From contig JAUWWG010000002.1 in the NCBI GenBank assembly GCA_030616985.1, positions 1-48,017 of the forward strand: 48,017 nucleotides of DNA. The letters are read 5' to 3'. The stretch comes from Thermoplasmatota archaeon (GTDB lineage Archaea; Thermoplasmatota; E2; DHVEG-1). Below the pieces are notes generated by a model. It saw only the letters and a list, made by a program, of their open reading frames with translations, ran no database searches and had not been told where the DNA came from. Position numbers and translations under genes: made by a program. This document shows, in pieces, positions 21,253 through 33,262 of this stretch; position 1 is the first letter of the stretch; each line of letters opens with the position of its first letter.

Positions 21253-21927
21253 TTATTTACTTTTCAACAGATAAAGTGGTCCAAGTATAATGTATGTTAC
21301 AAGCGTCGTAATGAGGAGCAGAGGGGCAATTCCATAATAATTTTTTCCAAAAATCAAAGTCAAAATAATTAATATGGCTGCTATGGCATCAATTTTAAGC
21401 CCTGGTTTCGGAAAATGTACATTTGAGATCATTGCAAGTGAGATGATAATGCTGACTGGCAAGATGTATAAGAATTCAATCTCAAAAAATGCCAGTATAA
21501 TTATTATTATGGCACTTATCGAAGCAGGGAGGCCAACAAAGAATTTTTTATCTTTCAGTATGTGAAAAGAGGCCAGCCGTATGATACTTAACGACAAAAA
21601 CACGATGAGGGTAATGAGGAGATAACTGTGGTAGTAAATACACCATGAAACTGCGTCATGATATATGGTGTAAACAAAAAACGAAGGAGCAACACCAAGT
21701 GAAATCATGTCGGCCATTGCCTCCATGTAATCCCCAAGTTCACTATGTCCAGTTTTTCTGGCTACCATTCCATCTAAACCATCTGCCAATAATGCTATAA
21801 GAATAAATGAAAAAGAAAACCACATCTCACCTAAAGACGCCATAATTATAGCTAGAAAACCAAAACCTGCATTAGTTAAACTGACGACGTCAGCAAGTGA
21901 TAACAGTTTAATCATTGATTTCTGCAA
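21253..21927 (-). CDS. pssA: CDP-alcohol phosphatidyltransferase, archaetidyl/phosphatidylserine synthase
   Basis: LADGLDGMVARKTGHSELGDYMEAMADMISLGVAPSF (DGxxAR…G…LDxxxD-like). Confidence 0.88.
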   Translation of the reverse strand: MQKSMIKLLSLADVVSLTNAGFGFLAIIMASLGEMWFSFSFILIALLADGLDGMVARKTGHSELGDYMEAMADMISLGVAPSFFVYTIYHDAVSWCIYYHSYLLITLIVFLSLSIIRLASFHILKDKKFFVGLPASISAIIIIILAFFEIEFLYILPVSIIISLAMISNVHFPKPGLKIDAIAAILIILTLIFGKNYYGIAPLLLITTLVTYIILGPLYLLKSK

Positions 21928-22555
21928 TTGTATTCACTCCTGCCTTGATCATGTCCCCTATTTTGACATGCACGGTCTTTATTTTCTTAGAAGGTATATA
22001 GATATCTACGCGGGAACCAAGTCGTATTATTCCAATTTTTTCTCCCTTTTTTAGTTTATCCCCCTTCTTGACATATGGTACGATACGGCGTGCCAGAGTT
22101 CCTGCAATTTGTATAACCTTTACTATTCCAATCTCTGTATCGATTGTTAATATTACTCGTTCATTTCTTTCTGATTCTTTTTTGAATGCCGGAAGATGAG
22201 CGCCAGGTAGATGAACAATATTTTTTATGGTTCCATCCAGTGGCATACGGTTGACATGGACATTATATACGTTCATGAATGTAGATATCTTTGTACATTC
22301 TCCAATTTCACTATCTTTAATGCTACTGATTTCTCTTATTTTACCATCTGCAGAGGCAACGATTTCCTTTCCAATATTCCTTTCAGGATCTCTGAAGAAA
22401 AGAAGGAAAAAACCTGTTAATAAAAGTAAGAAAACTGAGATAAACAAAAAAGTACTACTGATATTTGCTGTTAGACTAACGGATAAAATCAAAAAAAAGC
22501 AACCCAGAATAAAAGTAGTTAAAATCCATGATATAGAACCCCGTGCGATCTTCAT
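21908..22555 (-). CDS. asd: Archaetidyl/phosphatidylserine decarboxylase
   Basis: MNVYNVHVNRMPLDG, FFRDPER, IRLGSRVDIYIP (GSxxD); start at 22555 chosen over 22606. Confidence 0.88.
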   Translation of the reverse strand: MKIARGSISWILTTFILGCFFLILSVSLTANISSTFLFISVFLLLLTGFFLLFFRDPERNIGKEIVASADGKIREISSIKDSEIGECTKISTFMNVYNVHVNRMPLDGTIKNIVHLPGAHLPAFKKESERNERVILTIDTEIGIVKVIQIAGTLARRIVPYVKKGDKLKKGEKIGIIRLGSRVDIYIPSKKIKTVHVKIGDMIKAGVNTIAEIND

Positions 22556-22556
22556 G

Positions 22557-23489
22557 TTACTTTTTTCTCCAAACAGTTTTTTTAATAAAGTTTTCCAAAG
22601 GTCCATTTCTCTTGGGAAGATCCGTTAAATCTATTATCTCGTCAAAAACCTCTGGTACAATCTTAATAACAATGAATAATAGTATTACTAATGCAAGTAG
22701 GCTTCCACCTTTTCCTATTACATTGTGTGCCATAAAAAAAAGGCCCGGATCATCTTTTACTAGATGGACAATAAGAGCATTTCTTATGAGATTTAAAAAA
22801 TATATTGGAACTACTGTAATGAGTAGGCCATACATCTTCCTCTTTAAGGTAACCTTTGATAAGGGGAGTATCATACCAACGAAAATAACCATGGATTGCA
22901 CAGCAGTGCAGGCAAATATTATGTTGACGATACGTGAGCTTTCATAATAGATGCCTATTCCTTGTACACTTACATTACCTATGAATATATTTAGAAGCCC
23001 GCCACTCTGAACTGCGACTGCTTCAATAAGCCACGGTGCTAGAGGGGTAAGCTCTATAACAAAATAAATAAATCCAGCGATAGCTGATGCACCAGCTATC
23101 CAATTCAAACATCCGATGCTTTCTTTCCGTCTCATTGATAGCCATTCGTGGTAAGCAAGATAAAAGAGAACATAAACTCCGGCAATACAGAGAAATGCGT
23201 TGACAAAATCCTCTCCCTCTCCAAAATACAGAGTGTTTGGTTGTGTTGACCAATAAAATGCAAAAACTCCCCATCCTGCTATTTTTAGTTTGTTTGTTGT
23301 TCCTTCTTTTTTTAGAAAAGAACCCAGCCCAAGAAGAATTAAACCAGCAAAGAGAGGTATGGGCAATAATGCTTTCATTTCTTCATTTATCGGGAATGGA
23401 AAAAATGACAGTCCTATTATTATGAATACCGTTGGAATGATGATAAAAAGTGAAGTAATAGTACCTTCTGGGTATTTCTCTCTCTCCAT
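22557..23489 (-). CDS. artA: Archaeosortase A
   Basis: Polytopic; IIFACTAVQSMVIFVG (Cys), FLNLIRNALIV (Arg), MAHNVIGKGGSLLAL. Confidence 0.9.
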   Translation of the reverse strand: MEREKYPEGTITSLFIIIPTVFIIIGLSFFPFPINEEMKALLPIPLFAGLILLGLGSFLKKEGTTNKLKIAGWGVFAFYWSTQPNTLYFGEGEDFVNAFLCIAGVYVLFYLAYHEWLSMRRKESIGCLNWIAGASAIAGFIYFVIELTPLAPWLIEAVAVQSGGLLNIFIGNVSVQGIGIYYESSRIVNIIFACTAVQSMVIFVGMILPLSKVTLKRKMYGLLITVVPIYFLNLIRNALIVHLVKDDPGLFFMAHNVIGKGGSLLALVILLFIVIKIVPEVFDEIIDLTDLPKRNGPLENFIKKTVWRKK

Positions 23490-31486: not shown

Positions 31487-31495
31487 ATTTCATAG
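31487..31495. repeat. Target site duplication, left copy ATTTCATAG
   Basis: Identical 9-mer immediately outside each TIR. Confidence 0.88.
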
Positions 31496-31569
31496 GATTG
31501 CGTTTCGTTATGGTGGAAAACTATATATGGGGGGATGGATATAAATAACAAGGCAAAATTTAATTATCT

Positions 31570-32349
31570 ATGGTGGACTTTACGCAATACATGTGGAAAT
31601 CTGTTAAAAAAATTATACCAAAAACACGGGGTGGGTGGTTAACACTGCTTTCATTTATAGCTCTCATTAAAGATGATATACAATCAATATTATTACAATC
31701 AAAAATATTTTTGCCTGATTTTGATATTGTTACTGGAATTTTTGTTATTGGAGTAATTATTGGAATCATAATTTTGGTGAAAGACTTATTTGGTAATAGT
31801 ATTGATTTTTATAGTTCTCGTGAAGAATTACCATTGTTGAAAAAAACACTATCACAAGCAAAACAAGAAATAATTTTTATTGGCGTAACTTTAGAAAAAT
31901 TAATCGGACAAGAGGCATCTACTATTAAAGACACCATTCAACGAGGAGTTCATATGAAATTTTTAATTTTAAATAGTGAATCGGTACAACTTATAAAACA
32001 GGATAAGAACATGATTTCTAGCACTAAGCATGCGATAACTAGTCAACTTGTAAGAATCTGCAAAATAAAAAGTGAACTTACAGCATCTAACATAAATAAA
32101 TGTGAAATAAGAACATATGATTCCCCCCTATTTTATTCTATAACACTTTCAGACCCAAATTCAGATAATGCTACAATGTTAGTTGAATTTCAACTATATG
32201 ATTCAGATACGGAATTAAGACCAAGTATTCTTATCTCTAAAAGAAAACAAAAAAAACTCTTTAATGAATATTTGAAAAGTTACAATTACATTTTAGACCA
32301 ATCTATTGAGTACCAATGCCAAAATAGTAAAAAATTATTAAAGGAATGA
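31570..32349 (+). CDS. IS passenger: two-TM membrane protein with cytosolic PLD-like (HKD-lacking) domain
   Basis: Two hydrophobic segments then LLKKTLSQAKQEIIFIGVTLEKLIG…IKDTIQRGVHMKFLILNSES…CEIRTYDSPLFYSITLSD…RPSILISKRKQKKLFNEYL; inside IS, 4 nt before transposase. Confidence 0.75.
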   Translation: MVDFTQYMWKSVKKIIPKTRGGWLTLLSFIALIKDDIQSILLQSKIFLPDFDIVTGIFVIGVIIGIIILVKDLFGNSIDFYSSREELPLLKKTLSQAKQEIIFIGVTLEKLIGQEASTIKDTIQRGVHMKFLILNSESVQLIKQDKNMISSTKHAITSQLVRICKIKSELTASNINKCEIRTYDSPLFYSITLSDPNSDNATMLVEFQLYDSDTELRPSILISKRKQKKLFNEYLKSYNYILDQSIEYQCQNSKKLLKE

Positions 32350-32353
32350 AACA

Positions 32354-33241
32354 ATGGCAGAACATAAAGAGATAACAGTAATTGAGAGGGTTGTCGAATG
32401 TCGGTTTTGCGGTTCTACAGACTTAAGCAAATACGGTAAACACAAAGATAAACAATACTATATTTGCAAGGTATGTGGTCGGAAGTCGTCAGAAACAGAT
32501 ACTTTCCCTAAAATGAGGCAGTCTAAAGACCTTATTGTAAGAGCATTGACATATTATTACAATGGTATGTCATGCAGAAATATCTGCCATACTTTCAATG
32601 ATATGAGGGGTTTAGATGTATCGCCATCCACCATCTGGAATTGGATAATCAAATACTCTGAGATGGTAAATAATTATGTCATGTTTTTCGAACCGCATCT
32701 GTCTAATGTTTGGATAGGGGATGAGACTGTTGTGGATATTTGGGGTGAGCAGTATTGGTTTTGGGATATTATCGATACAGAAACACGTTTTCTTATAGCG
32801 TCTCACCTATCTAAGACTAGAACTATGAACGATGCAATAGATTTGTTTTCTACAGCGAAGGCAAAGAGCAAAATAAGACCTAGATTAATCATAACAGATA
32901 AATTAGGTATATATCACGGGGCGTTTAACAAAGTATTCTACACACGATATAAGGAAGACCGTGTTGAACATTTGACATCAAGAGGATTTAGGTCACCCGT
33001 CAATACGAATCTTATCGAGCGTTTTCACGGCACGTTGAAGCAACGGTATAAGATTATGCGGGATTTGAAAGAACCGTATAGCGCTAGTGTCTTGTTGGAT
33101 GGTTTTGTAACGCATTATAACTTCTTTTTAGAGCATAGTTATCTTAATTATGTTACACCCGCAGATATTACTGGCATCGGCGAAGGCATTAGGAATTGGG
33201 GGGATTTGATAGAATTGGCGTTAGGGAGGTTTCAACCATAA
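32354..33241 (+). CDS. IS6/IS240-like DDE transposase with N-terminal zinc finger
   Basis: CRFCGS…CKVCGRK zinc ribbon; GDETVVDIWGEQYWFWDIIDTETRF, IITDKLGIY, TNLIERFHGTLKQRYK (DDE); stop codon inside right TIR. Confidence 0.92.
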   Translation: MAEHKEITVIERVVECRFCGSTDLSKYGKHKDKQYYICKVCGRKSSETDTFPKMRQSKDLIVRALTYYYNGMSCRNICHTFNDMRGLDVSPSTIWNWIIKYSEMVNNYVMFFEPHLSNVWIGDETVVDIWGEQYWFWDIIDTETRFLIASHLSKTRTMNDAIDLFSTAKAKSKIRPRLIITDKLGIYHGAFNKVFYTRYKEDRVEHLTSRGFRSPVNTNLIERFHGTLKQRYKIMRDLKEPYSASVLLDGFVTHYNFFLEHSYLNYVTPADITGIGEGIRNWGDLIELALGRFQP

Positions 33242-33253
33242 CGAAACAAAACC

Positions 33254-33262
33254 ATTTCATAG
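33254..33262. repeat. Target site duplication, right copy ATTTCATAG
   Basis: Identical 9-mer immediately outside each TIR. Confidence 0.88.

Follow-up and report, generated by a model that had tools for sequence, protein, structure and literature searches.

The window, a 48,017-nucleotide stretch of DNA, is one of the 142 contigs (contig 64) that make up an archaeal genome of 89% completeness. By its genes for the DNA polymerase D subunits, MCM, and EF-2, which are core genes, and by its nearest relatives, MAGs of Candidatus Thermoplasmatota, it belongs to the Thermoplasmatota. Part of it (21253–23489) holds an archaeosortase A gene (TIGR04125, 114.6 bits) that overlaps the genes for archaetidylserine decarboxylase and synthase, a set that belongs to archaeal protein sorting and that here sits in a Thermoplasmatota genome. 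The intergenic region that separates a DUF424 gene from the gene for the small subunit of DNA polymerase D holds an inserted element of 1758 bp (31496–33253), with the following features.

31487–31495, no strand: target site duplication, left copy ATTTCATAG, from the sequence and the empty site in sister genera
31496–31514, + strand: left terminal inverted repeat GATTGCGTTTCGTTATGGT, matching the right repeat at 16/19 positions
31538–31546, + strand: putative TATA-like stretch ATATAAATA, with the passenger start some 28 nt further on, as would fit a leaderless archaeal promoter
31570–32349, + strand: passenger gene for a 259-aa protein with two predicted transmembrane (TM) segments and a DUF5919-like soluble domain (ORF, TM prediction, and sequence/profile comparison)
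32340–32345, + strand: putative Shine-Dalgarno-like AAAGGA in the passenger gene's 3' end, with the transposase ATG following 8 nt later
32354–33241, + strand: gene for a 295-aa transposase with a zinc ribbon and an IS6-type DDE core (ORF and profile match)
33235–33253, – strand: right terminal inverted repeat, which reads GGTTTTGTTTCGTTATGGT as the reverse complement
33254–33262, no strand: target site duplication, right copy ATTTCATAG, a perfect 9-bp match to the left copy

Joining the two flanks through one ATTTCATAG gives a sequence that aligns without a gap across the junction with the same region of four sister genera (L107–L110; genomes G007, G010, G002, and G005), where the uninterrupted site reads like TTTTATAGAAAGTTTTATATATT and is therefore single copy. 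This comparison leaves out the same-genus genome G001, in which the contig breaks at the site and the DUF424 gene was not found. The element is inserted immediately upstream of a TATA-like stretch that is conserved at the host site. The original prediction of an intact insertion sequence with 19-bp terminal repeats and two tightly packed genes is thus borne out, the two ORFs being 4 nt apart and the transposase stop codon lying inside the right repeat, and the perfect 9-bp duplication survives alignment to the empty sites. A search of the element's own genome with the left end gave no passenger-less or MITE-like copies. The element is complete, and from its structure alone we infer that it has recently been mobile.

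The transposase scores 142.5 bits against the NCBIfam IS6 model NF033587 (cutoff 125), which makes it an IS6 equivalog, and its likely triad is D123-D182-E222. It has in addition a zinc ribbon of the IS1/IS1595 type, with CxxC at 16 and 38, and with this CxxC pair and the IS6-type core in view it is the zinc-finger DDE transposase that was expected. Its signature, E222-RFHGTLKQR, combines an H at +3, as in bacterial IS6, with an R at +9, as in archaeal members. In common with the IS6/IS26 family, the element also has ends that begin with GG or GA and resemble GGTTCTGTT, and it duplicates its target directly. Members of the family have a single transposase gene and are about 0.7–0.9 kb long (PMC7986276), whereas this element has two genes in 1758 bp. 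It duplicates 9 bp rather than the usual 8 bp, a soft criterion because two archaeal IS6 members of ISfinder are likewise listed with a 9-bp duplication (PMC6807381). Curated archaeal IS6 elements measure 671–853 bp and encode transposases of 206–237 aa, which in clades a–d have an E--F---K-R signature and no zinc finger (PMC6807381); at 295 aa and with its CxxC pair, the transposase described here lies outside these clades. The family review records a single passenger-bearing member, ISDsp3 (PMC7986276). The element agrees with the tIS of the same review, a term for IS with passenger genes, in having one transposase, one pair of ends, and a non-transposition gene within its TIR/TSD boundaries, but differs in its archaeal IS6-type lineage, its apparently dedicated first-gene slot, and the wide turnover of cargo among its relatives. 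Casposons and Tn7-like cargo transposons are also unit transposons that carry varied genes, those for defense included, but the element has neither Cas1 nor Tn7 accessory proteins and contains only a single small DDE transposase.

The passenger gene has a G+C content of 27.9%, and its frame of 259 codons is not a product of chance since no stop-free run in 2000 shuffles (28% G+C) exceeded 147 codons. Two N-terminal TM segments had been proposed, of which the second (residues 52–70) is predicted strongly and the first (about 24–42) only moderately. The soluble domain (about residues 93–245) resembles DUF5919, although the protein has no family match in Pfam or NCBIfam and no hit to PF19319 (DUF5919) at the gathering score. 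Its best match among the genomes of relatives is a nucleotide-cyclase-domain protein that itself has a weak DUF5919 hit (passenger residues 99–244, score 135, shuffle maximum 80), and a PF19319 search of 101 relatives had one hit only, in L122, whose gene is that of L039. Judged in this indirect way, through relatives that match DUF5919, the two-TM passenger would have a DUF5919-like domain, though a distant one. The PLD-like character originally ascribed to the domain holds in part, in that the resemblance to DUF5919 stands while the link to PLD is weak, the sole PADLOC match being to DrmC (E = 0.0033). The HxK(x)4D (HKD) motif is absent, with HMKFLILN, in which N replaces D, as the nearest sequence, in agreement with the catalytic degeneracy that was also proposed, and the passenger falls outside the catalytic phospholipase D superfamily. 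A single-sequence AlphaFold model is uninterpretable (pLDDT 37) and searches of PDB sequences gave nothing usable. The passenger is known from a single copy only, with no match by tblastn in plasmids and phages and none in viral contigs, where the transposase profile also had no match. Two other weak matches by score, L114 (a KaiC/RecA-like ATPase) and L115 (an NAD(P)HX-type enzyme), looked coincidental when their ORFs were read.

The domain of the nucleotide-cyclase protein led to WP_104902263.1 of Nostoc, a 279-aa protein annotated as DUF5919 that also has two N-terminal TM segments and, on sequence comparison, is the nearest architectural match to the passenger (24% identity; BLASTP E = 3e-6 as a single comparison; hhalign 90.6% over 152 columns). 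Unlike the passenger gene, the Nostoc gene is not inside an IS. It lies on the plasmid NZ_CP026684.1 beside a type III-like CBASS operon, 317 bp beyond the genes for a SAVED effector, CBASS cyclase, bacHORMA_1, and AAA ATPase. The idea that it encodes the effector of this operon was dropped when a wider view showed that the operon has its own SAVED protein, and the gene is a neighbor within a defense region that is not clearly part of the CBASS operon. The element itself contains no CD-NTase or other partner gene (cyclase or immunity), which sets the passenger apart from CBASS effectors, and the passenger matches no known defense family at threshold. What had been predicted as a defense or addiction gene is therefore left with no family, no partner, and one suggestive neighborhood in Nostoc, and we consider such a role plausible.

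Four other transposases from Thermoplasmata are 51–77% identical to that of the window and form a clade with it (support 100/97). In all five cases the element's own repeats enclose one or more genes in front of the transposase, 1–38 nt from it or overlapping it, that include predicted TM segments, and a perfect 9-bp duplication surrounds four of the five (the window element and three clade-mates). The four relatives are arranged as follows.

L034, 1835 bp, duplication TGTATTTAA: a 92-aa wHTH-like gene and a 117–126 aa two-TM gene before the transposase
L035, 1849 bp, duplication CCGTTAATC: a 276-aa protein with two N-terminal TM segments before the transposase
L036, 3832 bp, duplication CTATGATCG: wHTH and two-TM genes before the transposase
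L045, no duplication seen: before the transposase, a short reading frame with a TM segment and another of 217 aa; the ends match at 16/18 over the first 18 bases and 17/19 over 19

The TM peptide and soluble domain of L045 are in two overlapping frames before the transposase (L045:4287–5008), which could be fused by a frameshift, whether genuine or introduced in sequencing. Behind its transposase L036 has a DUF5678/aspartic-protease-like pair and a 183-aa gene; this pair (L036:7163–7797), a small DUF5678 protein with a retropepsin-like aspartic protease after it (PF13650, narrowly below the cutoff), looks like toxin-antitoxin-style cargo. The wHTH and two-TM pair is the same in L034 and L036 (z = 11 and 23), which suggests an older origin of this pair within the clade, with replacements in the window element and L035. 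The transposases of the nearest relatives are 77% and 73% identical to that of the window, and their first-slot proteins are unrelated. Passenger genes have a G+C content of 24–29% versus 35–38% for the transposases in four of the five elements (L045 being left out). We conclude that the first-gene position is probably a cargo slot, in which one membrane protein gives way to another while the transposase and the ends stay. The passenger-carrying IS group that had been anticipated is supported, and it is larger than was guessed. The original prediction named copies without the 259-aa gene as evidence against it, and taken literally this applies, as the gene is absent from every other copy; because their different genes sit at the same position inside proper TIRs and TSDs, however, they point to swapped passengers and not to a mis-called boundary.

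Transposases with 33–43% identity are common in the phylum, and many have an N-terminal SWIM-like zinc domain. Bounded elements, defined by repeats of at least 13/18 that begin with GG or GAT together with a perfect 8–9 bp duplication, are present at 15 of the 41 transposase loci, including four of the five in the close clade. None of 272 decoy pairs of mismatched left and right ends passes the same criterion, and the boundaries therefore represent more than chance. The other 26 loci are without a bounded element, some of them being contig ends or truncated genes. Beyond the close clade the bounded elements are 2.6–5.2 kb in length with duplications of 8 or 9 bp. With one transposase per pair of ends in each, a pseudo-compound transposon, in which two IS copies surround the cargo, is out. 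The relatives are all on MAG contigs, where any single locus could be a chimeric join, but the independent 8–9 bp duplications that surround matched ends argue against this.

The cargo of these cousins is found on either side of the transposase and on either strand, and its functions rest on profile names. It includes a restriction-modification fusion of HSDR_N, N6-methylase, and specificity domains that also resembles MAD2 of the methylation-associated defense system (L082), a thymidylate kinase as well as proteins of the NosD-like and PQQ-propeller types (L088 and L089), a weak match to HINT in L078, and in L041 a gene that by eye is AbrB-like. Two further elements with a duplication and weaker ends, outside the strict count, carry the phage-defense candidate PDC-M24B/DUF1828 (the third copy in L094) and an HNH protein (L086). 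L088 and L089 are on one contig, and their transposases are identical at 272/290 positions (94%) while their cargo is entirely different. These two elements (L089:2501–6731 and L088:4767–8445; G040:C239) are in opposite orientation with nearly identical ends and the same 8-bp duplication, CTTTTTCG, possibly from a target preference or an older rearrangement. Subterminal repeats in the ends of L041, L079, and L093, such as AGTGTGGCAAA, which occurs twice in L041, are possible additional transposase-binding sites. The genome of the window has a second, SWIM-bearing transposase of the family (L096:2955–3809, contig C36; ORFs seen in L002). A nuclease-like gene with a VECKS motif (165 aa) follows it after 12 nt, and no clear element ends were found there.

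There are two alternatives to the reading of the first gene as cargo with a function of its own. It could encode an accessory or regulatory factor of transposition, a membrane-tethered protein that limits or localizes the transposase from within the same operon. That the first gene of the clade always lies directly before the transposase, tightly coupled to it, is consistent with such a factor, as is the same wHTH and two-TM pair in L034 and L036, which are distant within the clade, in the manner of a co-evolving module. However, the slot proteins are already unrelated at 77% and 73% transposase identity, the low G+C content and the unrelated soluble domains fit cargo, and the cousins place theirs on both sides and strands. 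Because the position of the slot is strict, an accessory role in transposition retains some probability, although we regard it as unlikely. In neutral hitch-hiking, a random low-G+C gene would have been trapped with no role for the element or the host, as might be expected from the ordinary metabolic and surface genes of some cousins (thymidylate kinase, NosD-like, and PQQ-propeller) and from a passenger known from one copy. We consider this distinctly improbable, as the passenger gene is first in the transposase operon with its long frame intact, all four clade-mates keep genes with TM segments in the slot (split over two frames in L045), and a domain like its own lies near a defense operon in Nostoc.

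The explanation that we favor, with reasonable confidence, is a single-transposase element with a conflict-type membrane passenger that aids its persistence. We propose that the IS6-type zinc-ribbon DDE transposase recognizes the 19-bp ends and inserted the element with the 9-bp duplication that the sequence shows. The element would supply a single promoter at its left end (ATATAAATA), and passenger and transposase would be on one bicistronic message, to which the 4-nt gap and the Shine-Dalgarno-like site in the passenger tail point. The passenger would be a membrane-anchored protein with a degenerate DUF5919-like sensor/effector domain, most likely a conflict-type membrane effector or sensor, and its benefit to the host, or the cost of its loss, may help the element persist.

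The family was not found in the literature searched or in two reviews. A 2019 survey of archaeal integrated elements notes that composite DNA transposons with diverse passengers, which bacteria are known to have, were as yet undetected in archaea (PMC6563490). We think it rather likely that the Thermoplasmatota host an undescribed IS6-related superfamily of single-transposase cargo transposons (1.7–5.2 kb, ends GGTNCTGT..., 8–9 bp duplications) in which entire cargo cassettes, defense genes among them, are exchanged while the transposase and ends are kept. The clade of the window would then be one compact branch, whose transposase operon has a slot dedicated to membrane effectors. If this is true, archaeal cargo transposons would explain the spread of small defense and membrane genes among uncultured archaea, and the rule of the same transposase and ends with different cargo would allow new conflict genes to be found by position.
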